Source: Psilocybe azurescens
Taxonomy: Eukaryota > Basidiomycota > Agaricomycetes > Agaricales > Agrocybaceae
Length of the DNA: 64,000 bases
Assembly (NCBI GenBank): GCA_023853785.1
Contig: JAJIRX010000732.1
Location: forward strand, 1 to 64,000
Reading direction: 5' to 3'
Positions 13,049 to 56,543 of the stretch are shown piece after piece. The notes beneath the pieces are model-generated. The model saw nothing but the letters and a program-made list of their open reading frames with translations. It ran no database searches and was not told the DNA's origin. The stretch's first letter is position 1. Every line of letters begins with the position of its first letter. The position numbers and the translations under genes were made by a program.

Positions 13049-13081
13049 CATGAAAGCACTGATCCTGGTCGGCAGCATTAA

Positions 13082-26790: not shown

Positions 26791-28200
26791 ATGGTTCAAC
26801 ACACTGGCTCCGTTGGCATTGACACCGTCACTCTGGTGGCTATGTTTGTCGAGGCCGTGCTCTATGGTGCATATACTATTGATGATGAAATTTTCTGACT
26901 ATAGTGCTGATTAGGCTCATACTACATGGACAGGTCTTCTGACTGTTCTGTCCATCGCCTCAACAGTGGTCTTAGTTCGAAAATCAAGACTCTCCAGGAA
27001 TCCGATCAACAAGCCTATGATCGTCGCCTCGGTCTCCATGTTTATTCTGGCTACTGTCGTGAGTTCTGTTGCTCTTGCAGTGTATAGAAGGCTGACGACG
27101 CATTCAATCGCCGTTTGATATGCCTTTAGCACATTGCTGCCGACTTCCAGAGGTTATTGGACGCTTTCGTCCGTCATTCCACAGATCACCCGGGAGGATC
27201 GAAAGGGTACCTTAACCGAGTGAATACCCCTATCTACGTCCTTAAAAGTACCGCATATGGGGCACAAACGCTCGTAGGGGACGCATTTATTGTAGGCAAA
27301 GTCACCCGCTCTTCTAATGGTAATTTCTGATCTATTGCTATAGATATATAGACTCCATCTAGTCTGGGACGGAGACAGGCGGATTATTATTCCCCTTTTG
27401 ATCTCCTTCATCGCTAGCACAGGTATCTTTAATCCAGTGAAATGAAATTTTTGGCATTGTATTCACCTAGTTTAATTAGGTGTAGGTATAGGCGCGGTCC
27501 ATGGATTCGCTCTAGCCGCACCTGACGATCCCATATTCCTCAAAGATCTTCAACACTGGATTGTCTCATTCTTCTCCCTCACACTTTTCACAAATTTTAC
27601 CTCAACAAGTAAGTCCACAATCACTTGGTTCTCTTCAAATGCCAGAAAAATTGCATGTCCATAGTAACTTACTGGTGCATCTCTTTTTAAGCACTTATCG
27701 CATCTCGTATCTGGTGGATCCACCGAAAGACAAAAACCATAGTATCCGGACGAACGTGCTCCCGGCTATGGTCGTCATCATCGAATCAGGGGCTATTTAT
27801 TCAGCATGTCTAATAATTCTCATCTCGTTGTACCTCTCTGGAAGTTTCACTCAGTATATTGTGCTTGATGCAGTGCGTCGAGCCTTTTTAGCTGATTAAT
27901 GGTTTTTAATCTGTCCTAACTGCTACTTTGGTTGGTTTCACAGGTTACACAAGTCATCGTACGTGTTTTTACTGAATATTCCCTTGAAATTTTTTCTCTA
28001 TCAGCTCATTCTCACCTTGAACGTATTAGGGTGTTGTGTTCTCGCTCGTTATTCTCCGCGTTGCTTTGGGCATATCCAGCGAAACAAGAAAGACTCGAAC
28101 CGGACGGATGACGACATTGGCATTCGGTGGTGCCAAAAGTGAGGCAATGACTGCAGAGGATTCACAGGAATCTCCGGCCGCCATCTTCAACGGAAGTTGA
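26791..28200 (+). CDS. Seven-helix membrane protein, paralogue 1 (one frame break)
   Basis: It belongs to a large basidiomycete family of integral membrane proteins of unknown role. Start MVQHTGSVGIDTVTLVAMFV; exons are separated by 50-80 nt introns: helix 1 (VAMFVEAVLYG), helix 2 (GLLTVLSIASTVVLV), MFILATV, then DFQRLLDAFVRHSTDHPGG, AYGAQTLVGDAFI, YRLHLVWDGDRRIIIPLLIS, IVSFFSLTLFTNF, ASRIWWIHRKTKTIVSG, IIESGAIYSACLIILISLYL, and a last exon FSLVILRVALGISSET to a stop at 28200. One base is missing in a GG run at 27748-27749 relative to its paralogues, which breaks the frame before helix 6. It could be a sequence error. It is first of a tandem array of three. Confidence 0.8.
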
Positions 28201-29543: not shown

Positions 29544-29752
29544 CTTAACTTATAGATCATCCTAGTGGATTTTCTCATTGTGGATCATTCCGACTGCTCC
29601 AACTCCGAGTGAGATGCGAGATACATGATTTGTATATAGTTTCAAGACTCGTAACTTCTATTCAATCACCATCCATTCCCAACACCATTTGACCTGCATC
29701 CTGCAGTAAACATCATTAACCACCTCGTCATTCTCACCATTCTCTCTTAATT

Positions 29753-31193
29753 ATGGTGCACACTGTTGGAATTGATACGACGACAATCGCTGCCTTCTTC
29801 GTGGAGGCTGTGCTTTATGGTGCCCGCTTTCGATTACTTTCGATGCCGTGACCACTATCTAACAAAATAATTCGTCCACAGGCATTCTTATTGTCTTGTT
29901 CGCGACATCTATGGCAGTAATGCTTCGGAGGTCAAGAATGTTGAAGGATCCTCTCAATAAACCCATGATCGTCGCATCAGTCCTGATGTTGATTTTGGCT
30001 ACAGTCGTGAGTCCGCCTCTATTATTGAAGGCTGCAAATGATTATTCCCGTCTCTAACCCTGTTTAACAGCACATTGCTGCTGATTTGAGAAGACTGCTG
30101 GATGCATTTGTTCGTCACTCGTCCGATACGAGTGAAGGTACAATAGCGTATCTCAGACGAGTAAGTGCCCCGACCAACCTACTGCAAAGCACCGCCTATG
30201 GGACGCAAACGCTTGTCGGAGATGCATTCATGGTGAGATTTTTACATTGCAGGGGCGTGCATAGCATTCTACTACAGATATCTAACTTTGGATCGCCTTT
30301 ACACAAGTTATATCGGGTACATATTATCTGGAATGGCGATAGGCGGATTGTTCTGCCACTATTAATTTTCTACGTTGCAAGTGGAGGTGAGCGGTGTGCA
30401 AAAAAATTATGAGTTAACATTCGAGGCAAACACAATAAATTTAGGTGCTGGACTCGGTGTTGTTCAAGGGTTTGCTCGAGCTGGTCCACAAGACTCCATC
30501 TACAACGGATCCCTTATGCGGTGGAGCGTTTCATTCTTCGTGCTCACGCTATTTACGAACTTCACATGTACACGTCAGTCAGAAGTTCTTTCCTGATGTC
30601 ATGGGGTATCTCGAGCCAGAAAACTGATCCGCGGTCGTAACAGTGTTGATCGCCTCCCGCATATGGTGGATTCATCGAGGGACAAACGCAATAGTATCTG
30701 GCGCAAGTATGCTACCGGCGATGGTCATAATCATCGAGTCAGGGGCCCTATATTTGGTCTGCTTGATAATCTTGCTATCAACATATCTTGCTAAAAGTTA
30801 TCTGCACTATATTGCGCTTGCTGCGGTACGTAACATTTCTTCAGATCTAGTATGCTCCCCTGCAGTAGGTTGGCTGACTATGAATAAATTCGCCTCTTGC
30901 TTCTAGGTAACGCAATGTATTGTGAGTATTATAGGTGTTCTGGGACCTCAATGGTTGCTTATCGTGATTATTATCTGATTCGCTAGGGCATAGCATTTCT
31001 CATGGTAATACTCCGTGTTGCACTAGGAATATCCAATGAATCAGGCAAGACTCGCGCCCAAAGGATCACGCCGCTAGCATTTGGCCCTGTGACAGGTGTA
31101 GAGATGATTCAGATGACCATGAACGACTCGGAACCGCATTTCATCGAGCTTTCACGAGGTAATAAGACAGTAGAGAGAAAGATGGGACAGTGA
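29753..31193 (+). CDS. Seven-helix membrane protein, paralogue 2 (intact)
   Basis: Same family and exon layout as 26791-28200. Start MVHTVGIDTTTIAAFFVEAV. Then ILIVLFATSMAVML, MLILATV, DLRRLLDAFVRHSSDTSEG, AYGTQTLVGDAFM, YRVHIIWNGDRRIVLPLLIF, GVVQGFARAGPQDS, VSFFVLTLFTNFTCT, ASRIWWIHRGTNAIVSG, MLPAMVIIIESGALY, LLSTYLAKSYLHYIALAA and a final exon with FLMVILRVALGISNESG to a stop at 31193. I see no frame break when introns are removed. About seven hydrophobic segments predict an integral membrane protein with a short cytosolic tail. Role unknown; a GPCR-like function is possible but unproved. Confidence 0.85.
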
Positions 31194-32257
31194 AATTTGG
31201 TACGTTATAGATAATGGATTCTATTTTGCTAGAGATTCGGAATCGGCCCTTTAATCCCCAAACACAGAATCAGTTGTATTACGAAGAATATCGATGTACG
31301 ACCCATAATACCTTGATGCGAAGGAAGACCCACAGCCCCTTTCCATATTATCTTATCTTCTACACATCTGTAACCCAATCAGTCGTTCAATCGGTATATC
31401 GTGGTCTTGTCATTTGCCGCGTGACTCTCAGTGAGCCCTGCGACGCCGGGCTTTCAAATGCCCTCCTATTTGCAGCCTCAGCCAAGTTTATGGATGTGGC
31501 TTTTTGCGAATTATAACACTAGCCGCTTTAAGACTAAGACGACACAAACTAGGTTGGTAATATTCCGATACTTACAACCGTAACGGCACTAATTAGCGTT
31601 CGTCAGGTAGAAGCGTGGATTTTTCTTTGACGCTAGATACTGACGTGAATTGCATCACGGTCAGAAACGATGAGCTCGGCGCGGTTGTTCTGCCGAAGAA
31701 AATAGCGACCCGATCAAATTAATTGAAAACCCGACGTTTACAACACGCTAAACTTAAATTGGAATATTACCTGAAATTTTCAATCATGAAGACTTGAAGC
31801 TTAAAATCCTATCGAATCTTTGGACACCTGTTCAGTACGTGAATCTCTATAATTGAGTAACGCTTTGGAAATCACTAAGTGAATGCGAAAGATTGACATT
31901 GCTACATCATGAGATATTCCCGGCAGAGAGACGGCCGTGTTTTCGTCCATGTGTTCATGTTTGATGGCTGCCTGTCAGATTGCTGCTTCTCTACGAAGAA
32001 CCACAGTGAATGTGACCCAATGGGCAAGACGACGAATAGCGGCTTTTGAGCTCCTTTGAGCCTGGGACTGGACTGGTGATTATTCCGGCTGTCCCGGATG
32101 GCTTTTTGCCTCGTTGACAAACAAACAGTTCATGTTACTTAAGATAGGGATGGTCCAGAAAACCTTCCTTCGGAGCAGCCTCCGTCACTCCCAGCACCAG
32201 AGCTACAGCTGATCTATGTCTCTGAACACTTCCTCCTCACAGTTCACTCGCTCACTG
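31194..32257. other. Intergenic region between paralogues 2 and 3
   Basis: 31486-31605 is homologous to the 3' flank of paralogue 1 (shared AAGTTTATGGATGTGGCTT and ACTAAGACGACACA). Otherwise no supported feature. Confidence 0.55.
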
Positions 32258-33766
32258 ATGGCAGAGGGGAAAGGCGCCGCTGGGATTGAGACCATGACTC
32301 TCGTTTCTATCTTCGTACAATCCGTGCTCTATGGTGCGCCCTTTTCATCATATTATTGTTAGGGGTAGCTAACAAGGCCTCTCTTGGCGCTTAGGTCTTT
32401 TTATCGTATTATTCATCACCTCCACCGTTATCTTGGTTCGGAAGGCCAAAATTCAGAAAAATGCTATCAACAAACCCATGCTCATCGCGTCGTTGACAAT
32501 GTTTATTCTGGCTACGGTGGTAAGGATAAGGATCATGTCGCTTCTTTCGACATCACTAACTCCGGCTCATTTTGCGCCGTCTAATAGCACCTTGCCGCTG
32601 ATTTGAGAAGAGTGCTGGACGCTTTTGTTCGTCATGCAGAGCAACCCGGGGAACGAAAACGTATCTTTCACGTGTCGGCGAGCCATCCTATGTACTACAA
32701 AGTACCGCCTATGGGACACAAACGCTAGTTGGAGATGCTTTCATGGTACGAGTTCTTTAATATCCCCCTTTCCCCGTGGAGATGGCTTACTTGGGAGGTC
32801 GCCGCATGTATACAGCTTTATCGTCTGCACCTCGTTTGGCACGGTGATAAGCGGATTATTTTGCCACTTTTGGTATGTTATATCGCGAGCGCAGGTGAGA
32901 GCGAACCCTACGTCCACTCTCAAGTAGGCCCACATATTGAATGAAAATTCTTCTCAAGGTGTTGGTTTGGGTGCTGTCCAGGGATTTGCTCGGTCTGGAC
33001 CACACCCTCTGATATATTTATCGGCTCCCTTGAAAGATGGAGCATCTCTTTCTTCTCGCTCACATTATTCACGAACTTTACTTGTACAGGTAAGTCCGGT
33101 TGTTTTTCTCAGCTAGAATGTACTGTCGTACTTCTTTCATGGAGCTTTGCTGATATACCCACGACCGTGATAGTGCTAATTGCATGTCGAATTTGGTGGA
33201 TGCATCGAAGAACCAAAGCCATAGTTTCTGGGAGCAGTGTTCTCCCAGCCATGGTGATCGTCATCGAATCAGGAGCCCTCTATTCTGCGGTGTTAATAAT
33301 CCTGCTGACTACTTACGCCGCTGGTAGCTTCTCGCAATATATAGCTCTGGATGCGGTACGTCGAAGTTATTTTAATCTTATAGCGGTCTTCGGCTGACTG
33401 CAACGCAACCTCATCCCCACAGGTCACCCAAATCATTGTAAGTATCGCATGTATTTCTCCATGTTTCTCCCCATAATTTAACATGTCACCCATAACCTTT
33501 CTATCGAACAGGGAATCACATTCTCCCTCGTAATAATCCGTGTTGGACTTGGAATGGACGACCGGAAGGTGGCACAAGGCGGGAGGCTAACAACGCTCGC
33601 TTTCGGCAGTACCGACATCGGAACAACGACCATTGACGACCCGGAATCTAACTTCGTCATAGATTTACGCCCCTCCCGACTTCAGCGAACGACCGTCATG
33701 AAGTCAGTACATACGGAAACAACAGAATACTCAGAGTCAGGAGAAGGAGATGGGGCGCAGAAGTAG
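32258..33766 (+). CDS. Seven-helix membrane protein, paralogue 3 (two frame breaks)
   Basis: Third member of the tandem array. Start MAEGKGAAGIETMTLVSIFV, then FIVLFITSTVILVRKAK, DLRRVLDAFVRHAEQPG, AYGTQTLVGDAFM, YRLHLVWHGDKRIILPLLV, GLGAVQGFARSGP, SFFSLTLFTNFTCT, ACRIWWMHRRTKAIVSG, VLPAMVIVIESGALYSAVLI, SLVIIRVGLGMDD and a longer tail to a stop at 33766. Relative to the paralogues one base is missing in the GGGG run at 32648-32651 and one in the CCC run at 33005-33007. Either this is a recent pseudogene or both are sequence errors. Confidence 0.75.
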
Positions 33767-34602
33767 CCAAGTGGTATTTTCGTGTTGGGCCCGTTGATGC
33801 CCGACCATCAAACATCAAACATGTCCATGCTGCGGTGGTCTCAGAAGCACGTATACGTAGGCTAGATCAAGAGGTCGTCACAGCACCAGATGCCTACTAA
33901 TGCGTCGTAGCCCGCCCTTTCAGCATCCCTCCAGCATCTTTATTCACTCAGAGAGGAAAGCTGAAGAAGAGCAGGGAGTGGATTCAGGTCAGCAGGTAGC
34001 TGACAGTCGCGCTCTTTCATCGTTATTGAGCCTCTTAACACTATACCACGAAACGTCCTTATTATAGTGTATTACTAGTTGTTTAAACAAGATACCATCG
34101 CTTTCGAACTGGATAGAATGGCTTTCGTCCAACAGTAGCATGTCCTCGGAGGCTCATTCATCTATCAGGTTGACTCTATAAGACATAGTCTAACCTACCC
34201 AGGTCTCATGATCAGTGCCACACCAAAAACAGACCATTCTGTAACACTGGGCGCAAGTTGGATACCAAGTACTTAGTCTCGTTCCCATCGACGGTGGTGT
34301 GAGCTTAAAGCCGGAGGCAAAATATTGATATTTTCTACTCTGCCTTTTTTTTTTAGCTGCATCTCGATCCTCTCCCAAAACAAACATGACAGAGTGATTT
34401 CCACCGACACCATTTGGCGTCTAACTTCTGTTTTTAAATGCAGACCGGTGCCCAGCGCACTTGTGTAAATTTTTAGATGTGATACGAGGTGTTACGCTGC
34501 TCAATCAGTCACAAGCTCGATTAAGTCAAACAATGATGTCATAAATAAGACGCAATTATAGATAAATACTATGCACTGTACAGCCATTCAAGAACGCTAG
34601 CA
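33767..34602. other. Intergenic region, convergent 3' ends
   Basis: It lies between the 3' ends of paralogue 3 (+) and the GH31 gene (-). I see no gene or RNA. Confidence 0.5.
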
Positions 34603-37600
34603 TCACCGCGAATACTGCACGGAGAATCCTTTCGTGAAGGCCACTCCAACGGTAACGTCCAACACCTTATTCTTCTCATCATACACCACATCCGTCTTCT
34701 TTACCGACCTCCCATCAACCGTCACCCTGGAAGGATTCGAAGTGACTCCAAGGAACCTCACCCGTTCGACTTTAACGCCTGTGCGATATCCAAAGCGTCC
34801 AGACACATCCAGCTTGCCGTTTGCAAACGCAAACTTCACATTGGTCGAGGAAGAGACGACGAGGGACTCTCCGTCATCGATGTACAGAGCGCCGCTGGCC
34901 TGGCCGCGCGCGTTGGGCGCGACGACGAGTTCGAAATCGGTCTTGCGCAGCTGCACGGTGGTCATCGCTGACTTGGCACGGAGAGGCAGGACGACGCCGC
35001 TCTTAATGTGCAGAGGGATCTGCGTGAAGTTAACATTGTCGAGCTTGACGAAGGAGCCGGCGCCTTGGACGGGAGCGAGCGTGGTGAAATCGTAGAAAGT
35101 GTCGCGGGGGAGATAGATGGAGACGGACGTCGTGTCGTCTTCGACGACGGGAGAGACAAGGATGGAGTCACCATAGAAGAACTGGTGGTCGATCGCGAAA
35201 GTGTTGGCATCCTTGGGGTATTTGAACCATACCGGGTGGAGGACGGGTGTACCGTCAAGATGAGCCTGGTGGAAGGCGGTGTAGAGGTAATCGATGAGAC
35301 GGTACCTGTTGAAAGCGAGTTAAGTGAGTGGACACATTGAGGATAAGAATATGGAAAAGCGTACCGAATATCTAAAGCGTTCCTAGCAGCCTCGGCAACA
35401 GTGGGCCAGTTATAGAACTCCTGGCTAATGGAATCTTCTCCGTTGTGCTAAAGATTCAGGATACATCAGCAAGGCTCTGAATCAGATAAGAGTAGTGAGA
35501 CGAACATTGCGCATGAAGGGTTGGAAGGCACCGAGCGTCGCCCATCGGGCACAAAGGTTCTCTGTCGTATTTCCACCTACACAATAACCGATTTCGTCAA
35601 TACTTCACGTAAAGGCAATGCATGAACTCATCAAACATACCGAATCCGCAAATATCGCTGCCCACCATAGGTATTTGATAGATGGACGCAAATCCAAGCA
35701 TTCCAGCGATAGAGAAGCGGTAATGATCCCACAAGCTCAGATTATCTCCAAGCCACTTGCCCACATGCACACCGGCGCCTGCAAACGTGGAGCGAGTGAT
35801 GATCAATGGCTTCTTGGTAGGACGACGTGCCAGCATGGCGATGCGAGTAGCGACAGACATCATGGACCCGTAAAGATTGTGTGTATCGTATTGGGTAAGT
35901 CCATTGTATTGTTTGATATCGGTCTGTTGAGGAACAGGGCCGAATGAGTTACATCTCACCTGTGAGAAGCAAAAACAGCGAGACTCACGTTGGCGGTCTT
36001 GCTAGACAATACACCAGCAGCGTTATTGATAGCGTAGGGTGGGTTCAAGAGGTCGTCTCGTTTGCTGAGCTGTGCAAGCTCGGCAGAAGAGTTGCCAAAG
36101 ATTGGGGCATCGGCATGAGGAGGGGGGATTGCGACGAGGAGGAGGAAGGCTTTGCTCGATGGCTTGTGCAAATGGATCAGCACAAGGATAAACGCAGAAC
36201 TGCGAATGTGAGAGGTCAATCGTTGGTCAGAGATATCGGGTAAGCGAAAACTTACATTTGCAGGTTCGTTCATGTCAATCCACACGCCATCGATGTCAAC
36301 GCCGGTTTTCGGATTGTAAAATCTTACCATCGTATTCGTCCAGTATCTATCATGGTATTATCAGCAGTTATGCGCCATATAAAGAATCAAAAGACGAACT
36401 TTTGAATATTCTTATGGAACCAATCTGGAGAAGTAGATTAGTACAGACGCACCACAACATATTCCAGTCTAGATGTAGACATACCAGGGAACACGCTGAC
36501 ACCTATAGTCAATTTATCAGTGATGATGTGCTGAATATGTGAAGTGTTGCTTACCTGCCCAAACCAACCCAATGAATGTACTTCCGTCCGTGTTTTTCAA
36601 ATAGATATCGAGATCTTTTCCTTCGTCGTAAGCGGTGTAGCCTTCCGAGGGGAAATATCCGATAGCAGGATCAGTCATTACGACTGAAGATGGTGTTAGT
36701 GACTGCACTATTCAATGCAGGAAACAAGCGCACTGTATTTCTGGTCACGGTTGTGCAGGTAGTCGACAATTTCTCTGACCCTTTTGAGCGGGAAGTATTC
36801 CGGGTCTAGGGTGAAAGTTCTGCGTCTGTCCATATAGTCTAAGAATGATAGCACATTAAAGTTGGTCCAAGTTCGATAAAAGAAAGGGAAAGTACCGATA
36901 TCAGTCCACATCGTCTCCAAAGGTATCTTAGCAGCGGCATATTTGACGATTACGCCCGCCACATCAACGAAATCTACGGGTAACGTGATTGAGAGACATG
37001 AGCGACAAAAGTCTAACGACTTGAAGAAAAGGCATACCTTTGTAACCAAATCGGCACTGGTGGAAGCCGAACGACCAGTACGGAACCTCTGCAGGGAGAC
37101 CTGCGACTTCAGCGTACTGACGCGCTAGCTCAGTTGGATCCCGCTCGCTTCCAGCGAGGAAATAGAAGTCTAGCACTCCGCCAATGACATTGTACTCCAA
37201 TGCATCTTTGCTGAGCTTGATATCCATTCCATTGGAATTGAGTAAAAAGACACCGTGAGTGCCCGTGGTACGATGTTCGAAGTAGACGGGCTGATTGCCG
37301 TACAAGTTCGTTCCAGTGGCGATACCATACGCGTCTCGGGACCAAAACGTTAGGGTCGTGTTGTCTGTTGGGATGTGGAAGGGGTTCGTGTGTTCCCCAA
37401 GACCATAAATGTTGGGGTTTTGGGGAGAGTGGTCTTGACGCGAAGGTACTGTGGTTCAAAGATGAGAGGGTTGCCTGCTGTTGAGAACAAGACTTCGCGT
37501 GTATTGGCGCGGTAGACAGAGAAGGAGAAGGGCGATGTCGTGTAGTTGAATCGAATGGCAGCGGCCTGCGGAGCTACCGAGCGCCTGGCGGATGGACGGG

Positions 37601-37965
37601 GAATACTGAGTTAGGAACTTCGTATCGAGAACCGGACGCGTCGACGATTTTGACATGGATACGTTCAGCTGCAAGCGTGAATCAGAACATGAGCGAAATG
37701 GTAGTAATTCTAGAGGCATACCAGTTTCGTATACAACATTCAGCGACAACTTTTGAATGTCAGGACCAAATACATTGCAGGCAGTGCCTCTCAATGTAAG
37801 GTCTGCAGTGAGACCGTCGCGTTTCGTCCTCACATTCGTGGCAGTATACCCAGGACAAGCTTGGAGGATGCTGGGATCGACGACGGCTCCAAAAGCAGAT
37901 GTCGGAAGGAGGGCTAAAGCTACAAGAGCGCGTAGCTTCGAGTTTCTATGTTGTTTAGACATCAT
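34603..37965 (-). CDS. Secreted glycoside hydrolase family 31 (alpha-glucosidase type)
   Basis: GH31 enzymes release alpha-glucose (or alpha-xylose) from the non-reducing ends of starch- or glycogen-derived sugars. The start [20 protein letters not shown] at 37965 gives a clear signal peptide ending near AFG. The N-terminal domain has [20 protein letters not shown] (about 37310) and [19 protein letters not shown] (about 37100-37045); the barrel has [26 protein letters not shown], and [13 protein letters not shown] (about 36285-36245), whose Asp is the nucleophile. GKWLGDN (about 35755) holds the acid/base Asp, then GSDICGFG (about 35650), [17 protein letters not shown] and a beta-sandwich C-terminus ending VQYSR at 34603. 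There are about eleven short introns. Frame breaks at 37577 (CC/GG run) and 36122-36127 (G6 run) are both single-base losses in homopolymers, so an intact gene with sequence errors is likely. Substrate cannot be fixed from sequence. Confidence 0.88.
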
Positions 37966-40848
37966 GAGAGGAACTCAACGAGGAAAAAAAAGACATGAAG
38001 CACACTGATTTATAGGCATTCAACCTCCTAGGACGCGTATTCCGACCCCTTGCTCGGATCCATTGTGAAATAGCAGCTGATATGGCCCGGTAAGAGCATA
38101 TTTTTCTGATCAGACTTTCGGTTGACCTGTTCAGGCTTGCCCAAGAGCCGTTGCGCACACGGTAGGCCTCTGTAGACACGCAAAGTCGAAATTATCTGCA
38201 CCCGGTAGTAGTATGTTGGAACCGGCCCTAAGTTATTTACGTAGTCATGAGTTATCACCCCCACAATTTTTGCGGGGTCTCGCACTGATCTCGTACTTTT
38301 TACTTCATTTTCAGACCGCCAGAACTCCATTTGTCCAACCCTATGCAATCTTTGGCCATCTTCAACCATTTAAACTCGTTTCGCTACGCTCTGTAAATCA
38401 AATAAATCAAATGTTAGCTTCTACCGATCATTGTCAATTTTCCTCGACTTCCGATGCGCTGGTCAAGAGTCCTGGACCCTTGAAGTGGGGTAGCTTTCTG
38501 ATCGCCAGCATTTCTTGAGGAGGTCAGGCGACGTCTCAAGACTTTCAACAACATGGTTAAAGGACTCGGTGTCCACAGCCTCTGATCCGCGAATGTAGAC
38601 TTGGTGACTCCTTCTGACGGTCAGAGGTTCAAATCTGACTATCTTTTCTTCGAAATAGGGCCACTTAAAGCTTCTGGAGAAATCGTAGCTGGATCTGAGC
38701 CCAAAATCTGCTCTTTCTATTCGAATGTGTTGCTCAGAAGACTATTTTATGATACCATGAACCTGATTCAAGTAACGATGAACAAGAGTACCAGCAGCAA
38801 AAAGTCTCCGAAAAGCAATATCGGATCCCTCGGAGGCCGAAACTCAAGAACGTGGGTCAGCTTGGAAGTCGTACACTCAGCCGCACTTAGTTATCAAAAC
38901 ACTTAGCCGCTGATTTAATTTGATATTAATATGAACAGTCTGATAGATTCTTCGCGCCCCGGTCTCGTGGTATTTGGACACCGCTCAAGACTAGCCAAGA
39001 CTTCTCACTGCTCAGTATCTCTCAGTCTCTCTCAGTTCATATGGTCCAACAGTGAACACTGCTCCCGGAAAGGGGAAATGCTTGGAAAGAGCGTAATAGG
39101 TGACGCAAATCCAAGGTCAGAAGTTGTCCAAGCGCTCAAGCCACGATATCGCCACGCGATAACCACGCGCGGTCCAGGTCGCGGTTCGCCAAACCCCAGT
39201 TCTGGCCAAGGACCTATTACCAATTTGTCACCTTTAGCCGTCTGAGGCCGACGGCAACCTGAATGGAACATCCAGCTGGTTATTCTCTATTGTAGCTCTC
39301 AATCTCCAGTCCTAATCAACATTCTAGAAATCCTTGCGAAGCCCAAAGAACAGCGACGTTCCTGGGGCTTGGAAATGTCAAAGTTTTGAGAAACTACTCA
39401 ATGGATGACATTGTCGGCCGCCCAAATTCCAATGCCTTTTTCTTGAACTTCGGAGAAATGTTCTAGGCTACTTGAACGACTTGCTCATGTGTACTTAGTT
39501 CGATTCGTTCTACTGAGAGTCCAGCCTCCTTTATCCTTGTATTGCTCGCTGCGATAGTAAACCCCGTATTTGCCTGTCTTACTCTAGAGTGGGTGTCCAA
39601 GCTCAAGATCCAGTATTCCGTCCTATGCAGTACACTACGCCGGCACCAATGCTCATCCTAATCATATTCATACCACCAATATGTTCTGTTGCTCTAACCG
39701 ACCACTGGAGCATACGTGGATAAGGACGATGCTTAGACGAAGAATTCCGATATGTGACCATTGCTCTTGTTCAACACCCAGCACCCGCCCTAACTATCCA
39801 CTTCTCATCAGCACGATTGTCTGGATCTCTTTCTATTGAACGAATAAAGTTCTTTCTCACGATACTTTGTTCCACTGGTTTACCATCGAGGCGGGGTCCC
39901 AGGTCGTTGTAAAACCCCTGGACTTTGAGAGACTGAGCATCGTGTACTACTTGACCTTCTAACAATGTGACTCCAAGCATGGCTCTTGCCTAACCGCGTA
40001 TTTGCTGGTTCGTGACTTGCAAAGCTTCTCGCAGAGCTACTAGGCCTGGTTATAATTATGCCGACTAAACGTGTGCAACCTATCTGTTATTGTCGGCGTT
40101 GGCCACAATACAGTGCTAATAAATTCGATTCATGTCCAATTTCCAATGTATCTTATGTCATAATTCCGGCACAGGTTTCGCAATGTCAATGATTGCGCGA
40201 AGACATTATTGGTTCGAAGACTTCGATGGAATGTTAGTAGTCGTACAGAGCGTATATGGGGCTGGAGACCTGCACAAAGCGTATATAGGGCCCGAGGGTT
40301 CTTGTAGATAAACGATGCTTTCCGTCTCACGTCACAGTGGGGGGCAGGTGAGCTCAGAGCTCAGACAGCCCAAAAAGCTTCTGACCTATGCTCTCAAGGT
40401 CGACTGCATCTTTCCAAACGTTTGCGGTAAAATGGCTGTATTCCTCGATGGCGCAAAAGAAATCTCTGGTCTCGACTTCACGTTGCTCAGCTATTCCATC
40501 GTAGGTCAATACTTCAGTGATTCCGAACTTACCATGTTAGCCTTAGAACTCACACCCTACGCGGGTGTCGGCCATGGGGGTCGACTTCTTAAATTCTGTC
40601 TCTCACGTTTCGGCTGTGGATAAAATTCAGTCGTATCTGGCTGGCTCCTGCAGAGATACTCAATTCGAAGTTCCCTAACACATTCTGTGGTATAAAAGTA
40701 TATTCCTCCATGAGACAAGAGAAGAGATTCGAGGTTTGGTACAATCAATGGCAAATGGACTAATCTACGAGTACATCTATCCACCGATCTTCTTCAAGAA
40801 CCGTTGTTGACATGTAATTGTGCCCACAGGCTTAGTTCGAGGGGTCGC
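37966..40848. other. Long intergenic region without recognised genes
   Basis: 2.9 kb with only short, unsupported frames. The part next to 37965 is the GH31 promoter side. A segment at 38550-38650 superficially resembles tRNA promoter boxes (see rejected items). I see no transposon ends or repeats. Confidence 0.45.
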
Positions 40849-42345
40849 TCAGAAAGAGGTTCCCTGCTCGGAGTCTAGACCATGAAATGAGAATTAGTAA
40901 ATTCAGTTTTGTATTTATTGATCAACTTCAGCGTACTCTCTGCGAAAGTTTACACGGAGGGTTTAGTATGAGATAAAGCAGTGTAAGGTACATATACTCA
41001 CCAGCCCTGCGGAAAGAGGTTCCTTGCTCAGAGTCTATCACGGAAATCACAAAATTCAGTACATTGACTCGTCAAAATCAGTGCAAGGTCAACTTACTCT
41101 CAGCGCGGCGGAAAGAGGTTCCTTGTTCGGCGTCTAAAGCTACTAAGTGAATTTGTCGCAGATATGCCTAAGAAATGCTTACTCTCTGCAAAAATTTACG
41201 TCTTAAGTTTTGATTAAATACTGCGAAAAGCCAGACAACTCACCGGCCCTGCGGAAGGAGGTTCCTTGCTCGGAGTCAGAGCCCCGGCGGAAGGAGGTGC
41301 CTTGTTCGGTGTCTAATGACATTAAGTAAATGTTTTGTTGCATATGCGTATGAAATGCTTACTCTCTGTGAAGGTTTACATTGTTAATATGGGACAAGGC
41401 AACCATAAATTGAGAACTTACCAGCCCTGCGGAAGGAGGTCCCTTGCTCGGCATCAGTGCCGCGACGGAAGGAAGTTCCTTGCTCGGCATCGGAGCCTCG
41501 GCGGAAAGAGGTTCCCTGTTCAGCGTCAGAGCCACGGCGGAAGGAGGTGCCCTGTTCGGCATCGGTACCCCTGCGGAAGGAAGTGCCCTGTTCGGCATCG
41601 GTACCCCTGCGGAAGGAAGTGCCCTGATCAGCATCAGTGCCGCGGCGGAAGGAGGTTCCTTGCTCAGAGTCAGAGCCCCTGCGGAAGGAAGTACCCTGCT
41701 CAGCATCAGTGCCGCGACGGAAGGAAGTTCCTTGTTCAGCATCAGTGCCGCGACGGAAGGAAGTTCCTTGTTCAGCATCAGTGCCGCGGCGGAAGGAAGT
41801 TCCTTGTTCAGCATCAGTGCCGCGGCGGAAGGAAGTTCCTTGTTCAGCATCGGTGCCGCGACGGAAGGAGGTTCCTTGCTCGGAGTCTAGTAGAATAAAC
41901 CTCTCAATATCGCTATGTTAAAATCAATGAGTTCAGCTTACCCTCTATAGGGAGAGAACATTATTTAGTAAGTAGCTGATAAAATAGAATATTTGTAAAT
42001 GCGAAGACTTACTGGATCTGCGGAACGAAGTTCCTTGCTCGGAAGCTGAAACCGATGGCTTGAGCATTGCATAGTCTCAGAAATAGCAAGCCAACTTACA
42101 AGTAGTGAGGTCTAAATTATTAATTCAGTTATCAGCATTGTAATTCTGGAAAACAGTGGGCATATGCTCACCAGTCCTGCGGAATGAGGTTCCCTGCTCC
42201 GAATCTATGCATAAAACAACAATTAACATACACGAATGGACATAATGATTCGAGCATATCACATACTCTTGCTGGCTACAGGGCTCGCTGTGGCCATGAA
42301 AGCCGACATGGCAGTGAGAGCGAAGAGCAGATTCTTGAATTGCAT
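40849..42345 (-). CDS. Secreted tandem-repeat peptide precursor (KEP/dikaritin-like)
   Basis: Predicted 257 residues. Exon 1 (42345-42267) gives the signal peptide MQFKNLLFALTAMSAFMATA and the start of the mature part. Seven further exons encode about 20 copies of a repeat with consensus GTDAEQGTSFRR: 42204-42172 (1), 42045-42013 (1), 41886-41422 (13), 41312-41244 (2), 41133-41098 (1), 41034-41002 (1), 40874-40849 (half unit ending SEQGTSF and stop). All introns are phase 1, and exons are 33, 33, 465, 69, 36 and 33 nt, so each adds whole repeats. Every complete unit ends in Arg-Arg, the Kex2 site of the fungal secretory route. Cleavage would release many near-identical peptides such as GTDAEQGTSF, with variants AGD/AED/GSD/SEQ. 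This is the layout of KEP proteins and of dikaritin RiPP precursors. The next gene upstream on the same strand is a UstYa-like protein. A structural or effector KEP is the alternative. Confidence 0.85.
41422..41886 (-). repeat. 36-bp minisatellite within the precursor (13 units)
   Basis: Thirteen direct 36-bp units, in frame with the encoded dodecapeptide. Most differences are synonymous or change Thr/Ser at position 2 and Ala/Ser at position 4. Arg-Arg and SF are invariant. Units near 41700-41850 are almost identical, showing recent unit gain. Confidence 0.93.
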
Positions 42346-43367
42346 GTTAAGTGAGAAGAGAATAGCAAGTATATTGCAGATGCAGGGATCTGATTTTTCA
42401 AGAACAGCCAGAGTCGGTTTTATAGGCAGATGACTTGCCCAAAAGGCCAAAAATTATGATTAGGTTACGTTGCTTATCCTCCCTCGCTTCGGATGTGAGT
42501 AAATCGCTGAAAAATTTGTCTTCCTTACAGATCTGGAACAAAACTGTGATAGAACCACGATAATGGTTGAGTTACTTCTCTTCGTTGAAACGGACAAAAC
42601 TCGAATCCGCATTGTATGCTTTGTGGAGTTTGCAATATCTCCGTTAAATAATTATATTGGCCTGAGTGCTGTCGTCGATTGCGACTCTCCTAGCGAAATA
42701 TGTGGGAGATTAAAATCAAGGTGGGCCTCGCCGAGTGCTTCTTAGTTCGGATTAACATCTGAAAACGTTTCAATGTCTGCTGACCGTTACTACTACCAAG
42801 AACATTCTCATAGGCCGTGTGTAATGAGAGAGAAGGCATTGAACAGTCTCCGTGAAGGCCATAATTCTGTCAGAGTGCCCAATGAGACGATCTAGTGGAA
42901 CCACTATTGAGAAAGCCAATAAAAGGGGATGAGAATAGAAGCATGGCAGTCTGTTCTATGCAACTCATTCTGATTTATGCTGCTGATTATCCTTGAATAG
43001 CGAGAGTGAATCGAAAGCTCATTGTGGGGATGGGCGCCATCTCGATCTCCTTTAGACTGTCGATCGAAAATAGCATAGCAATTTACTCAAGACTTCCATG
43101 TGGTTGATCTTCTGAAAAGCAATGAGAATTCTGCTACCTAATTATGTTACATTCTTCTCAGGACATTGCCCCGCAATTAGTTAGAGCGAAGTATCACCAG
43201 ATCCAGATAACCCGGCCAGTACGGGATATTGTTATGCTCGAACTAGAACTTGAATCATCAAACGACAATTTTAACTCTGCAATAAATGTATGGCAGATGG
43301 TATTCCATTTCCAAGTATTGGAGTCAGGTAAATGACGTGCTACTACCGTAAATCTGCCAACTGTAAA
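42346..43367. other. Intergenic region between precursor and UstYa-like gene
   Basis: About 1 kb, no gene recognised. It must contain the promoter of the precursor and the terminator of the UstYa-like gene, which runs in the same direction. Confidence 0.5.
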
Positions 43368-44394
43368 CTAATGGGAGCCGATTGCTGTAGTATTTCTGAG
43401 TATGTGGGAAGCTGGGATGTGCACCGCATGCTCAAGCGCCCAATCCAGAATATCATCGAAGCGACGACATTGGTGTATCTTGTCAAAGTTGGGGTGCGGC
43501 TTGTCTCCGTGCCACCTATATGTGAGTACAGTAACATCTCCGGCACAAGAAATGGTCTGTCGCAACAATTCGACACAGTGGTCTACAAAGAGACGGTGTC
43601 AGCCTTGAAGATGTGTCCTGGCTCTGGAAGTTTGAAAGCATACCCAAATGTCCTCTAAGCTCTTCAGCGGGCACTGTAAAGAATCTATCGTCCTTGTAAT
43701 GTTTGGGATAAGTGGCCTTCCGAAGCAAGTTCTGAAGAACATGTTAGATGTCGTCGGTACCGGATAGCTAGGCTACCTACAACACAGTGAAGTTGGTGAA
43801 GCACCCCAATCGATGCCATCACGCCGCCACCGTCCTCTTCAGAAAATTTGACCAGCGTCTCATCGTCTTTAGTGTTTACCAGAGGCAGCATTTCCATGGG
43901 GATTCTCATGGGACGTACTACATGCGATATAATTCAGTTTGGCTATTGTAGGGAAGAATTCAACGAATACCATCGTCTGTAATGCTGTCCCAGGCTGCAG
44001 TAATCTCCGCAGTGGGATGACCTTGGTATTGCATGGCCTCTTCGGAAGAGAGATTAAAGAGTTGCGAGTAGTAGCTGATAACACCGGAAGCGGGCGCTAA
44101 AATGGTTGGTTTGTTAATACCATCGTTCTAGAAGAAATTTGAAAGCTCACAAAAAGATGAAACTCGAGAAATAAAGTCTGATTCAATGTTGCGCTGAAGA
44201 CGTACACCTTCGAGGAAGAATAAAATTCCAGAAGTAAGAAAGACAATATTCAATGCGGTTGTCCAGAAGAAGGCAGTCCTGGAACACGATCTCGAAGAGC
44301 GCGGCGACATGCTCCTCGGAAGCAACTGCTCTGACGAGGGTACCTCATCCTTGTCTGAGAGGAGGGAATAAACTGGGTGGCTTGTTTCTGGCAT
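43368..44394 (-). CDS. UstYa-like (DUF3328) protein, intact
   Basis: UstYa-family proteins catalyse oxidative cyclisation of Kex2-released core peptides in ustiloxin, phomopsin and asperipin pathways. The start MPETSHPVYSLLSDKDEVPS at 44394 is followed by a cytosolic stretch and one membrane helix (FFWTTALNIVFLTSGILFF, residues about 43-62), placing the rest in the secretory lumen. Then come exon blocks with SEEAMQYQGHPTAEITAAWD (about 44060-43985), IPMEMLPLVNT, VMASIGVLHQLHCV (about 43835-43785), LLRKATYPKHYKDD, and after another intron DHCVELLRQTISCAGDVT (about 43575-43525), YRWHGDKPHPNFDKIHQCR and a stop at 43368. Both signature motifs are present: HQLHC and HLDHC (the second split by an intron). 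Four introns of about 50-65 nt restore one open frame of about 260 residues. It lies 1 kb upstream of the repeat precursor on the same strand. Confidence 0.9.
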
Positions 44395-47719: not shown

Positions 47720-49125
47720 CTAAACATAGTCGTCTACTTTGTATTTCGGCTTTCCTCCGTCTTTCATAGGCGCAAGATTGACGACAGTATCTGGCTCGGA
47801 GTTATCGGTTGTTCTTCCTGCCTGTCTGGCACCCGCTGCAAATGTCGTCAATTTTGTACGACTCGGAGCTGCCTCGCTTGATATTCCTAAGGCGACGCGC
47901 ACAATTACGAGAGAGAATACGACCCCCTGTTATTGACATGACATCGTTGGTAAGATTCAGAATTCCACGATTTGGAAATGTACTCACGATAACTTGGGTG
48001 ACCTGGAAAGAAGTCCAAAGATTAGATGAGAACTCGATCGTGAAATTAAAACTCACTGCATCGAGAAGAATGTACTGCGCAAAACTGCCAGACAGGTATA
48101 ACGAAAGGAGAATGATCAAGCATGCGGAGTATATTGACCCCGACTCGATGATAATCACCATGGCTGGTAGGACGCTGTCTCCAGACCTCATGATGCCTCG
48201 AGACCTGCGATGTACAAGCCAAATTCGGAAAGCAATCAACACTGTTAGGCCGTTTGATTAATGTTCCGGCTTGCATAGCTTGAAAACAGGTACCCAGAGT
48301 AACTTACGTGTGGAGCTGAAGTTCGTGAATAACGTCAGTGAGAAAAACGAAACGATCCAGTGTTGGAGGGAGTCTATGAATACGGGGTCATCTGGAGATG
48401 CCCTCGCGAAGCCCTGTAAAGCTCCAATGGCTACACCTAGAGAAAAGAAGAAGAGCGCAATAAATATCTGCATTCGGGTAAATTGGCTTTCTCATTACCT
48501 ATACTGGCAATAAAGCAAATCAAAATTGGCGCAACTATTCGCTTATCGCCATTCCAAACGAGGTGCAATCGATAAAGCTAGGCGAGATATCAGTGAGCAT
48601 TGTAACTGACAGTATTAGTCACTTTCAGGGTTACTGACTATAAAGGCATCCCCCACTAGCGTTTGTATGGCATAGGCTGTACTCTTCAAGACGTAAATTG
48701 GAGCGTTGACTTCGTTTAGAAAGGCCACAGGACCGCCTGGCGTTGTAGCAGAGTTGATGAATGCGTCTAGTACTCGTCGTAAGTCGGAGCCAACGTGCTA
48801 TTTCATGAAGAACCAGTCAATTGAGTTAACTTGAAAAGAAGCAGTAGTGGAACTGCCTTGAGCCTGAATTAGCACTCACAATGGTCGCCAAAATAAACAT
48901 GACAACAGACGCAATTAACATAGGCCTGTTGACTGCATCCCTAGACGCCCTGGACTTTTGTAGAAGAATCACCGTAGATGCAATGAATAGTACGATGAAG
49001 AGACCTGTAGCATATTAGCCTCTGTGAAAGTAGATTATATCTGTCATACCATAGAGAATCGATTCCACGAAAATTGAAACGAGGGATACGGTGTCTATGC
49101 CAATCGAGCCTGTGTGTTTTGCCAT
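47720..49125 (-). CDS. Seven-helix membrane protein, paralogue 4 (inverted, intact)
   Basis: Same family as the tandem array at 26791-33766 but on the other strand and 14 kb away. Start MAKHTGSIGIDTVSLVSIFV at 49125, then FIVLFIASTVILLQKSR, VVMFILATI, DLRRVLDAFINSATTPGG, AYAIQTLVGDAFI, YRLHLVWNGDKRIVAPILI, GALQGFARASPDDPVF, IVSFFSLTLFTNFSST, AFRIWLVHRRSRGIMRSG, VLPAMVIIIESGSIYSACLI, FSLVIVRVALGISSEA and a stop at 47720. No frame break was found after intron removal. It is the closest of the four to paralogue 1 in the IESG..YSACLII region. Function unknown. Confidence 0.84.
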
Positions 49126-51957: not shown

Positions 51958-54647
51958 CTACTCCTTCCCGTCCCAACAATAATTCTCAAAACACGACACA
52001 CACACGCCCTCCCTCTTCACACCCTTCCTGCCCCTCGCGCGGTCCACAAGTGCACACGCCAAGCACGTGCTCCACTGTGCGCCGGCGGGAGTGGCGCTGG
52101 GCTCGAGCCCCAGCCCTTGCGTGGCAATAGCGAACGATTCGTCCATGAACGCTTGTGCCTGCATAGCGTAAGGGGGCAATAAGCACATGCACCACTCATA
52201 ACAAACAGGGACACAGAAATAAGAACAGAAATTAGGAAAACGCACCATCTCATCGCTATACTGCGTCACCGCCGTCGGGACGTCCGTCACGCCGCCCAAG
52301 CCAAGCGCGCGCCTCTGCGCCGACGGGCCCCCGTTCGCGACGTACACCACGAGCGGGGCGCCGCGCCGCGCGTCGGCGTCGCTGCACCCGAAGAACGTCG
52401 GGCGCAGCGTGAGGTTCTGCGCGATGAAGGTCTGCGGGGAGGAGGGCACGCGGGGGGAAGGGGTAGAGGTCGCCGAAGCGCGCGGCACGCGCGGCTGTGT
52501 TCTGTTGCGTGTTACGGGGTGGGTGGGAATGGGAGGGAGGTTTATTAGAGACGACAGACAGGGGGTATGGACTAGTGAGGACGCACGATCAAATCACTTC
52601 CATTCGTGAAGCTGTTCGGCAGATCCGCAGGCTATAATTTAAGCACCATCAGCATCACCACCCAAAATAAAAATAAAAAACAGAATAAAAAAGAGAGCAG
52701 AAGAGGAAGAAAAAGCTCACAGCATCAACGGCAAAAATGGTATCTACGCCTCTTGTCTTCATAATCAGCGGCTGGAGCGGGAGAACCTCGCCGTTCGACC
52801 CGCCGTCGACGAGGGCGACGAAGGATTCCTGCGACGCGCTGAATTTGCCCTGTAAATGAAATCCATCCGCTCAGTTTACAATGAGCAAAAGATCGGATGA
52901 GCTAGTACTCACCGGGTTCACGCCCCTGAACGGGTTGGGCACCGCGCCCGAGTCCATGCGCACCGGCGTCTGCGGCGGGAACGTCGCCTCGATGATGTTG
53001 ATGACCGCGCCCTCGGTCGTGAACGGCAGCAGGTTCGTCGTTCCTATAAAGGCAAGGGTTCAAGGGTTCACAGTCAAGTTCAATCATCACAAAATAAAAC
53101 GTGTAAAACGCCGACGAAAACGCCAACGCAAACGCGCAAAAAAAAACCACAACGCAAACGCACCATTCAGCCCATTGAACACATTACTCGACAGCCCAGC
53201 GATATACGCCGCCTGGTCGAACCCATTCACGCACTGCGCGGGCACGCGCGTGCGCCCTGCCGCGCCGGATGCGGGGGAAGAGCCGAGCAGGCGCGTGGGG
53301 ATGAAGGAGCCGAGCGAGGGGTCCCAGGAGCCGGTTTCGACTGGTGGTGTTGGCGACGGAAGCGGGGGGAGGGGAAGAGGAGGAGGACGTCAGTATCTCG
53401 TCATATCACAACACGACACGCCAACAGAACAGGCAACACAACAGTCACCCGCGCTCTCGCTACGCTACGCGGCGGCTCTCCGCGCAACAGCGCAGCGTAC
53501 AAAAATAACCACAGAAACCAAAGAGAAAAAAAACTCACACATGTTGATCTCCCAGATCTCGCTGCCGACGGGGACGCTGTTGCCCGGGATGGTGTCCGCG
53601 ATCTGGGCGGGGTCGTTCGGGTTGGCGATGAGCGCGGGCGGAATCGCGTTCGCGAGGATGATGGGGAAGGGCTGCGCGTGCGCTTTGATGGTCGGGCTAA
53701 AAGTATATATGTAAAAAAAAGATGAGAAAAGAGAAACGCAAAGAAAAAGACACTGCAGCAATCAGCCATCGACGCTGGAAACGCGCTGAGAAAAGAAATG
53801 AGAAAAAATCGACACTGACACATTCTGGAGCCCAGAGAACGTAATCCCGTCGCCGTGCAAGCCAGGCAGCAAAGGTCATCCGCCGTCGTGCCGTTCACGA
53901 AGTGCCGCGCGATCATGCGCGTCCACGCGTCCGTGAGCGTCACCGGGAAGCCCGCACTATGCTTCGCGCTGAGCTCCGCGAGGATGGCTCCGATGAACGC
54001 AGTGTTATCGCCATCCGCGCCCCCAGGCCCCAATATATCAATACTGCTGAGGAACCCCCGAACTGCGAATTCGCCGCGGGAGCGAGACGTTGAGGTCGAG
54101 GTCGAGGTGCGCGGGGAAGACGAGCTCGGGGACGGTGGGAAGTCGGCCTGCACGAGCGCGGTGGTGAACCACGCGCCGCCGGAGAGGCCCGCGAGGTACG
54201 TCGCGGCCTGCAGCACGCCGTTCGTGCCCGTCGGGTGCGTCGTGTTGCGCGCGTCGAGGGCGGTGAGCACGCCGGCCGCGAAGTACGCCGCGCGCAGGCC
54301 GCCGCCGGACAGCGCGATGCCGAGCTTGGGAAGTCCGCTGCCTTGCGGGTGGGCTTGGGGTCGAGGATGTCGGACACGTATGCGGGGAGGGCGCCGCCGC
54401 GCGGGAGCGCGGACTTGACGCTGCTGAGGTAGGTTTTCCAGGCGCCCGGGAGGACCGTGTCGGTCCGCGCAGAGACGTAGTTGCGCTCTTCGGTGGAGAG
54501 GGCGGGCCGCGAGGCGGGGCCTGTGGAGCGGATGAGGGTCTTCGGACAGGCGACCTTGACAGGGGTGGTCTGCGCGACGACCAGGAGCGGGAGGAGGAGG
54601 AGCAGCGCACAGCACAGCTGCTGTGTGCGTGCTGCGAAAGTAGCCAT
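51958..54647 (-). CDS. Secreted phospholipase B / lysophospholipase (PLA2_B family)
   Basis: Fungal phospholipase B removes fatty acids from phospholipids and lysophospholipids outside the cell or at the wall. The start MATFAARTQQLCCALLLLLP at 54647 gives a signal peptide. Next are KLGIALSGGGLRAAYFAAGV (about 54325-54270), TYLAGLSGGAWFTTAL (about 54205-54160) with the nucleophile Ser in GLSGG, TDAWTRMIARHFVNGTT (about 53925-53880), FPIILANAIPPA (about 53650), GSWDPSLGSFIPTRLLG (about 53335-53290), QCVNGFDQAAYIAGLSSNVF, FVALVDGGSNGEVLPLQPLI (about 52830-52775) with the catalytic Asp in DGGSNGE, TFFGCSDAD and a Cys-rich end (CLACALVDRARGRKG, CFENYCW) to 51958. There are about eight introns. One base is missing in a GGG run at 54328-54330, and the repeat-rich stretch at 54090-54160 is uncertain. 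The exon is very GC-rich compared with the transposon regions. No clear GPI signal was seen. Confidence 0.88.
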
Positions 54648-56543
54648 GGGGGGGAAGAAAGGGGTGGGCGGTGTGTGCAGAGGACGGGAGCCGTAGACTA
54701 AGTATGCATTGGATTCGACATGCGTGGTACTGATCTACGGCAAAAAATAGTGGATGATGTGATGGATGTTGGACGGGCCTGTGAATTGGCCTGCGTCATG
54801 ATATTGGTCTAAGGAAAGCAATTTCAAATGCAGACATCTCGGGCTAGTCGGCGTATCCCAACTGAGTTTGAATTCATCCGGACCCCGACAAATCGTCGTA
54901 CTTTGCAGTCAAAATGTCACCAATAGTATGCTGACCGCCTTCAGATCGTCGACAACGCCAACACATTACGCACATGGTCAGTCAAGCTGGGGAGCAACAG
55001 TTGGACTGGCAACACCTCGCCAACAACGAGCTGGACGCGGCAGCGTCGAAAATTTCAAATGCCAGAGACCCAGCTTAGCTGTTAGTCCCTGATACTTTTC
55101 CTTTTCAAGATGAAATTATTCGGTTACTAGTGTAGAAGCATTGGAACGCCCAAGGCCACTTACTACGTCAAACTACATCATAGATCCAAGAGGATCCAAG
55201 TCTGCTTGATATCGTCGTTGAGTTACAGGCTCCGGTTATCGACTCTGGTGCTTAACAATGCGCACCTGTTCACAACGTCGCGATACTATGCGTGGATCAG
55301 TCATTAATCAGGGATTAATCTGTTTGGAAACCCCAGGTTGTTCATTCATAAGACACTTTTGTGCGCTTGTCAGTGAGGTTCGACAGCTTTCGACAGCTGC
55401 TGATAGTTGCCGTTCCGCCACCGCCAAACCTTAGGCCTTAATGTGTAGCTTTGAACAGACACGACACTCTTTACAATTTACTCGTTTTCGGCGACGACGA
55501 CACTCACGACTCCAGTGCTGGACTCACTGAAGGACGGTTCTAGGATTGCCTTGAATCAGATAGATAGATAGATAGATATCAAACCTTCAATTAGCATATC
55601 TATTTACTGATAGCTACTGCCTACAGAATTCACCTACAGGTCACAGATCAGTCACTTGCGATACAGGTGCATCGGGACCTAGTATTATGGCCCGCCTCTC
55701 GACAAACTCGACATTTTCTGCCCAGACCAGCAACGCGTGCTAATTGGTCCTCGCTCCTCCGCCTTTCGGCCTACCTTCGATTGCCCCCGTTATACGTTTT
55801 TCACGGGGTCTACCTTGTAATAAAAAATAGCGGACAGCAAAAGAAGCGATGTAGATGGTAGATGGCTGCCTCAGTCCGATTGTAAACCTCAAACAACACA
55901 AGTCCGAAAATGAAACTCGTACTCAGCGTCGTCGCTCTTTGAATATTCTCCGGCCATTCATAACGACCATTCATGGGTTTCTCTTGGAAAGGGGGGCTTC
56001 CAAATAGATTAATCGGTGTTCTCACGAAACATGCATGTTTTTAAAAATTTCAGCGTGATGATCGACTTGCAATTACATTTGCCATTCACTGATTCAGATT
56101 GACGCCGAGATTTGGTGTTATCCTCCCCTCCCATTAGATTTATCTCTGAGTGTCAATTAGATGATCCAGACAGTATGTTACAGAAGCACCACTCGACGGA
56201 AATGTCAGAGTCGACGTCGGAAAGGGAGCGACTTCAATGTCTTCAAGTACGCTCTCAAGGGGAGCCTGTGATAAATTCTCAAAAGAGACCATGGAGCTTT
56301 AGAGTAGAGTTTCGGAAATGAAATAGGAGCGCCGCGATGGTAACGCAGAGCGAGGGGTTCTTTATATCCTGACCGTCAATTAGCACCGACTCCTTTCAAG
56401 TATCCTAACGAATATAATGATACAATGTAGAGGACCCGAGAGAGACGAGAGCGCAGGCTCCTCGTCTCCTCGTCTTGGAGGAAGCTTGCGTCGGAGGTGA
56501 GTGATAGTGCAGTAGTCCGCGCGCTCTTTCTTACTTATGATCG
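54648..56543. other. Intergenic region
   Basis: No supported gene. A short (GATA)5 microsatellite lies at 55559-55578. The last part (about 56495-56543) is itself a local copy of 56675-56722 (AGTGCAGTAGTC...CTCTTTCTTACT). Confidence 0.5.

Follow-up and report, generated by a model that had tools for sequence, protein, structure and literature searches.

A duplicated pair of a Kex2-repeat precursor gene and a UstYa-family gene in Psilocybe azurescens, a putative dikaritin-like peptide system

Background

Ustiloxin, phomopsin and asperipin-2a are made from precursors carrying repeated cores and Kex2 sites, with participation of an enzyme of the UstYa family; their cores are cyclised via Tyr, and ustiloxins and phomopsins additionally need a tyrosinase (PMC7329392, PMC9233826). 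In the present study, we analysed a comparable locus of the basidiomycete Psilocybe azurescens in a stretch of 64,000 nucleotides (contig JAJIRX010000732.1, positions 1 to 64,000; the stretch is called the window below and its contig C625) from an assembly of 70.4 Mb in 937 contigs. Positions 40849-44394 hold, both on the minus strand, an intact gene of the UstYa family (DUF3328, PF11807) and downstream of it a gene for a predicted Kex2-processed repeat protein (KEP), whose core, unlike those of the three peptides named, is free of Tyr. The same pair occurs once more on contig C623. The locus is probably a two-gene, dikaritin-like system for ribosomally synthesised and post-translationally modified peptides, in which the UstYa protein would oxidise or cross-link the peptides of the precursor.

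The core of victorin is the hexapeptide GLKLAF; our literature search found no paper with this core. Victorin, from the ascomycete Cochliobolus victoriae, resembles the window pair in its multi-core precursor, which is probably cut by Kex2, and its cyclisation links the side chain of the C-terminal Phe, not a Tyr, with an internal Leu (PMC9233826). The core in the window ends in Phe as well. However, victorin is chlorinated and its cluster encodes peptidases (PMC9233826), whereas no further cluster gene common to the two copies was recognised when 84 kb of C625 were compared with 58 kb of C623. For the enzyme, a comparison is offered by CctR, a copper-dependent DUF3328 hydroxylase, which is membrane-associated and has the arrangement HxxHC(x)nHxxHC, the HxxHC motif being the site for two coppers per monomer; its substrate is a non-ribosomal cyclic peptide, unlike that proposed here (PMC12435403).

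KEP genes near UstYa genes in basidiomycetes were counted by Umemura in 2020: DUF3328 genes lay within 15 genes of 103 out of 1680 KEPs in Basidiomycota. DUF3328 counts were highest immediately adjacent to the KEP gene, and Tyr was present in 65.6% of the repeats of DUF3328-linked KEPs, leaving about a third without it (PMC7329392). In Pleurotus, 16 UstYa-like genes are reported, six of them developmentally expressed (PMC8893723). A first-pass annotation of the window had regarded a basidiomycete two-gene version as a minimal system and a Tyr-free substrate as unusual. In view of the 2020 counts and of the Phe of victorin, such pairs in basidiomycetes were already described and a Tyr-free core is not exceptional. 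The novelty of the locus is therefore lower than claimed, and its unexpected element is the gene structure with predicted exons of three nucleotides.

Results

An intact UstYa gene lies next to a Kex2-repeat precursor gene

The interval 40849-44394 extends exactly from the stop codon of the precursor gene to the ATG of the UstYa gene, as the first-pass annotation had placed it. The UstYa gene (43368..44394, minus strand) consists of five exons (44394-44151, 44096-43971, 43917-43781, 43731-43644 and 43582-43368), separated by introns of 54, 53, 49 and 61 nt with GT-AG borders throughout. Its reading frame is intact and the spliced translation of 269 residues is open to a TAG. The PF11807 profile, matched over positions 6-220 of 220 at 179.8 bits (cut-off 25; E 9.2e-53), identifies the protein as a genuine member of the UstYa family. 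The two HxxHC motifs are HQLHC (43784..43798, minus strand) and HLDHC (43575..43650, minus strand), the latter interrupted by intron 4 (43643-43583) and read from the spliced translation. On the Kyte-Doolittle scale a single hydrophobic stretch stands out, residues 43-61, where the 19-residue mean reaches 1.77; beyond residue 70 the maximum is 1.22. The putative membrane helix placed here and the putative signal peptide of the precursor are both assigned from hydropathy. No chain among the PDB sequences matched the protein at E values up to 1.

The stop codon of the UstYa gene (43368) is followed after 1.02 kb by the ATG of the precursor gene (40849..42345, minus strand). In the preferred model this gene comprises 13 exons and encodes 265 residues, namely a putative signal peptide and 20 units with the consensus GTDAEQGTSFRR. 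Nineteen of the units end in Arg-Arg (RR), and the final one ends in F followed by the stop codon. Unit 1 follows the putative signal peptide, unit 2 has 15 residues (TDLTTSSEQGTSFRR), the other 17 RR-ending units have 12 residues each, and the final unit without RR has 10. Tandem Repeats Finder reported a period of 36 nt with 12.5 copies (score 557) at 41429-41878; this central array is independent of the gene model, the single-unit exons flanking it on both sides being model-dependent. The array is certainly not a product of chance. The precursor also matched the Pfam families RDM3_C (42.7 bits, cut-off 35) and, below their cut-offs, Collagen and Toxin_27; these matches were judged to be artefacts of its repetitiveness.

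With several similar repeats between dibasic sites the precursor has the build of a KEP, and with a UstYa gene 1.02 kb away, and again on C623, KEP and UstYa genes are clustered as in dikaritin loci. What had been proposed from the letters, about 20 RR-ended repeats and, 1 kb upstream on the same strand, a UstYa-like protein with both motifs, was borne out by the gene models and the DUF3328 profile; hydropathy is compatible with the signal peptide and the single membrane helix proposed with them. The pair is compact, and its flanks on the two contigs have little else in common.

The core EQGTSF is nearly invariant

Both precursors together contain 36 units, in which Q, G, T and F occur in 36 of 36, and E and S in 35 each (one D and one A, respectively). 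Both Arg are present in all 34 non-terminal units, although the second one uses six codons. Most codons vary between units; Phe is TTC in 36 of 36. Pairwise comparison of the units within EQGTSF gave 1560 silent and 70 replacing codon differences, which is a description and no test, because the repeated units are not independent. The residues ahead of EQGTSF vary (GTDA, GSDA, GSDS, AENS, SKDS and others). In the simplest reading the function would lie in EQGTSF, with the residues before it serving as a spacer or being trimmed off. Since F is the last residue of the final unit in both precursors, the mature C-terminus is expected to be Phe, trimmed or not.

None of the 36 units contains Tyr, the residue typical of classical dikaritins, and Phe is the sole aromatic residue of the core, as stated in the first-pass annotation; Trp and His are absent too. 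The dipeptides following RR are GT, GS, GE, AE, SK, TD or TE in both precursors. The XA/XP dipeptides of the Ste13 type, which follow the dibasic site in ascomycete alpha-pheromone-like KEPs, do not occur among them, in contrast to a KEP on contig C600 of the same genome, which has EAEA spacers. The core, in three spellings, was found in no paper searched, with the reservation that the supplementary core lists of PMC7329392 may contain the core.

The pair is present a second time on C623

Precursor and UstYa protein each have one close relative in the assembly, both on C623 in the same order and strand; the searches scored the best candidates, so that weaker relatives may exist. The UstYa gene there lies at 311522-312548 and the precursor gene, with 16 units, at 313616-314572. 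At the DNA level the UstYa genes are 78% identical; for the precursor genes and the region upstream of them, identity is 71-80% in parts. The UstYa proteins are identical at 237 of 269 residues. Their differences at codon positions 1, 2 and 3 (30, 7 and 100 in 269 codons) and the rates of replacing and silent substitution (dN 0.059 and dS 0.99 by NG86; dN 0.062 and dS 0.77 by YN00; dN/dS about 0.06-0.08) point to constraint. The first 25 residues of the precursors are identical although 10 of 75 nucleotides differ. That the pair was kept twice, with constraint on both genes, indirectly supports that the two may work together.

An allelic relation of the two contigs is held unlikely. In a blastn comparison of the two regions (E up to 1e-8) the common DNA was the pair, a family of membrane-protein-like genes and repeat sequence, and dS is 0.77-0.99, whereas a haplotig pair elsewhere (C40/C538, at another UstYa place) is 99.77% identical over 8.8 kb. 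From this comparison, the C625 and C623 copies are most likely paralogous, though C623 may represent a very old, rearranged haplotype. Genome-wide homeology was rejected as an explanation: window positions 34600-38000 find matches only at 65-74%, on C803 and C636 and none on C623.

Upstream of the precursor gene, TATAAAA (42418..42424, minus strand) lies about 75 nt before the ATG, where the aligned C623 sequence has TATAAGA. A block at 42570-42720 stands out from the remaining intergenic sequence by its greater likeness to C623 and is possibly a promoter element or a small unannotated exon.

Exons of three nucleotides are predicted in the precursor genes

All introns of the preferred model have GT-AG borders and lengths of 49-68 nt. 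Exon 1 (42267..42345; all precursor coordinates on the minus strand) encodes the putative signal peptide, beginning MQFKNLLFALTAMSAFMATASPVAS, with a hydropathy of 2.0 at residues 6-15. Exon 2 (42172..42204) contains unit 1, NSEQGTSFRR. Unit 2 is assembled from a 12-nt exon for (D)LTT (42100..42111), whose counterpart with splice sites lies at C623:313853-313864, and from exon 4 (42013..42045) for SSEQGTSFRR. The predicted 3-nt exon AGG (41942..41944) precedes exon 6 (41422..41886), the central intron-free block, which is followed by a predicted 3-nt exon AGA (41363..41365), exon 8 with two units (41244..41312) and another predicted AGA exon (41183..41185). One unit each is encoded by exon 10 (41098..41133) and exon 11 (41002..41034); a fourth predicted 3-nt exon, again AGA (40937..40939), leads to exon 13 (40849..40874) with the last unit, in which EQGTSF is followed by TGA without RR, as in the C623 copy.

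Taken whole, five introns, four in the precursor gene of the window and the fifth in that of C623, would measure 126, 109, 110, 127 and 123 nt, whereas all others in the two precursor and two UstYa genes have 49-64 nt, two of these per precursor presupposing a real 12-nt exon. Each of the five contains a mid-located YAG-AGA/AGG-GTRNG, which divides it into halves of 49-68 nt. This motif was found in 5 of 5 real interiors, the five being related copies, compared with 55 of 10,000 mononucleotide shuffles. Branch-point-like words are present in both halves, the pattern YTNAN being too loose to count as evidence. Counting AGA or AGG brings all affected RR-ending units to 12 residues, the length of the intron-free units (AENTEQGTSFRR, GTDAEQGTSFRR); leaving it out gives 11. 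A strict 12-residue rule is contradicted by unit 2 with its 12-nt exon, which has 15 residues in both copies. At the predicted junction of exons 11 and 13 the sequence reads CGCAGGGCTG-AGA-ACTCCGAG; without the 3-nt exon, GCTG meets ACTCCGAG directly. In exon 10, AGA is fused to the 3' end of the unit (GCTGAGA precedes GTAAGT), so that this exon has 36 nt where exons 2, 4 and 11 have 33, which fits the loss of a first half-intron.

Exons of three nucleotides, four in the window precursor and a fifth in the paralogue, are therefore likely on the evidence of length, motif and unit size, and single introns of 109-127 nt in place of intron pairs are disfavoured. A precedent in a basidiomycete is found in P450 genes of Phanerochaete, where 6-bp exons occur with introns of 45-55 bp (PMC1184071); the shortest exon described there has 6 bp, whereas those predicted here have 3 nt and recur with the peptide unit. 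Microexons, defined as 3-30 bp, include a functional one in Trichoderma, and the same paper mentions predicted microexons in three fungal genes and a function in S. pombe (PMC11121469). In a narrow literature search we found no report on splicing of 3-nt microexons in fungi.

Other UstYa genes and KEPs in the genome

PF11807 gave 28 exon-level matches on 13 contigs of the assembly. Near-identical copies were merged (C664/C665 at 99.6%, C664/C148 at 97.8% over 7 kb, C40/C538, and C250 with C40, which agree in all of 25 residues surrounding one HxxHC motif), leaving ten UstYa places, with two places on C500 counted separately. The search for KEP-like arrays asked for words of six residues that recur, close to a dibasic site, four times or more within 3 kb. 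Such arrays were found at four of the ten places (C625, C623, the C664 group and C434), where unevenly 3.9-16 kb in all were scanned per place and KEPs with few repeats would escape, and in none of 12 UstYa-free stretches (143,103 bases in total; eleven from C625 and C623, one from C600).

The C664-type KEP, on three near-identical contigs about 2.8 kb downstream of the UstYa gene (C664 from about 139122 to beyond 139500, C148 from about 6724, C665 from about 7198), has units like VAHVYGVDADE or VDEDE with LTKR or LSRR in front of them, mostly one per exon. On C434, units like ADDAVAPQAWSGYTEKRAEEASDV recur at a spacing of about 117 nt, as if one per exon (about 346925-347890, minus strand). 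The UstYa matches of this place, at 349328-349944, lie about 1.4 kb away in divergent orientation. This UstYa protein is the next closest to that of the window (42% over residues 164-253). Four matches to the proprotein-convertase P-domain in the genome make the presence of a convertase likely. The 87 matches to DUF6533, the short introns and the large number of UstYa genes agree with an agaricomycete genome; 14 control genomes, all without a match, are no test of this, as none of them is known to be fungal.

Neighbouring genes in the window

A membrane-protein-like gene lies within 20 kb of the pair at both copies. Weaker relatives of the one in the window (29752-31238) are found at 26930-27293, 32579-33361 and 48106-48579. 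The segment 15226-15630 is 100% identical to C623:333319-333723, which adjoins the C623 membrane-protein-like gene, and is perhaps a recent mobile element. A GH31 C-terminal domain (34606-35319), a lysophospholipase catalytic domain (53404-54795) and a match to GMC oxidoreductase that just exceeds its cut-off (60025-60513) have no obvious role with the gene pair. A tandem repeat with a 98-nt period (3.1 copies, 99% matches) lies at 12751-13051.

Discussion

From the gene structures, the family membership, the duplication of the pair and the constraint on it, we infer that Kex2 and Kex1 process the precursor, that the enzyme meets the peptide, and a chemistry as follows. The precursor would enter the secretory pathway, Kex2 would cleave after each RR and a Kex1-type carboxypeptidase would remove RR, leaving some twenty peptides that end in EQGTSF-COOH, most of them 10 residues long. 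The [M+H]+ values calculated for the linear forms of GTDAEQGTSF, GSDAEQGTSF and AENSEQGTSF are 1012.4218, 998.4061 and 1069.4433. The membrane-anchored UstYa protein, by its family a copper enzyme, would then oxidise or cross-link them with copper and oxygen in the secretory lumen. The likeliest target may be the near-invariant hexapeptide; given that victorin is described as cyclised via its C-terminal Phe, the Phe of EQGTSF is the first candidate by analogy. Hydroxylation would be an alternative chemistry. It seems unlikely, at the present state, that a single UstYa protein introduces a new kind of cross-link or oxidation into EQGTSF (on Phe or on Glu, Gln, Thr or Ser) in combination with an array that is modular at gene level. 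As the outer units are single exons joined via predicted 3-nt exons, duplication or skipping of such exons would change the number of peptides with the frame kept.

Several observations weigh against a joint function of the two genes. At six of the ten UstYa places no KEP was seen in the scanned stretches, and a KEP on C600 (NPTWKREAEAQR, at 168962-169342 and around) is accompanied by no PF11807 match on its 269-kb contig, so that either gene occurs without the other. The scan was moreover designed after a looser one had revealed the arrays. Joint duplication alone is no proof of joint function, as both regions also share the membrane-protein-like gene. Tyr, Trp and His are missing from the core, and a mushroom peptidomics study reports linear and minimally modified KEP peptides (PMC9769878). 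It is conceivable, though on balance rather improbable, that the precursor yields unmodified linear peptides for signalling, defence or the surface, and that the UstYa protein acts on something else. Both of the last-mentioned points would fit this, as does the fact that DUF3328 neighbours are present at just 6.1% of basidiomycete KEPs (PMC7329392). However, the pair was retained twice with both genes constrained, KEP-like arrays stand at four of ten UstYa places compared with none of 12 UstYa-free stretches, and the C600 KEP, the one without a UstYa match on its contig, is built differently, being pheromone-like with NPTW cores and Ste13-like EAEA spacers.

It is very improbable that the peptide is a signal sensed by the nearby membrane-protein-like genes, possibly of the seven-transmembrane type, with the UstYa protein tailoring the ligand. 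Among the 40 candidates scored out of 125, the gene at 29752-31238 had one further near full-length match, C623:331579-333050 with 80% identity, and both times the contig also carries the pair. However, a segmental duplication accounts for this linkage, the genes are about 10 and 17 kb away from the pair, and their relative orientation differs. The seven-transmembrane label describes an appearance. No Pfam family, STE3 among them, matched four open reading frames of this local group at E up to 0.01, and DUF6533, which is of this type, has 87 matches in the genome and none in the window. More improbable still is a structural or surface repeat protein in which RR is incidental, for which one could quote the tandem hydrophilic repeats behind a putative signal peptide and the RDM3_C match discounted above. 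RR is retained in 34 of 34 non-terminal units despite the six codons of its second Arg, and in both precursors F is exactly where the final unit ends. The two-gene system with a UstYa protein modifying the peptides of its neighbour remains the reading that we prefer.

If the peptides are modified, the locus would represent a very small UstYa system, one gene pair present twice in one genome, and its core free of Tyr, Trp and His would be a clean test of what DUF3328 enzymes are able to do. Three unlike KEP arrays beside UstYa genes in a single genome are useful for pairing enzyme with core. The predicted 3-nt exons suggest a route by which such arrays may grow through exon duplication in intron-rich fungi, and also why gene predictors may overlook precursors of this kind.

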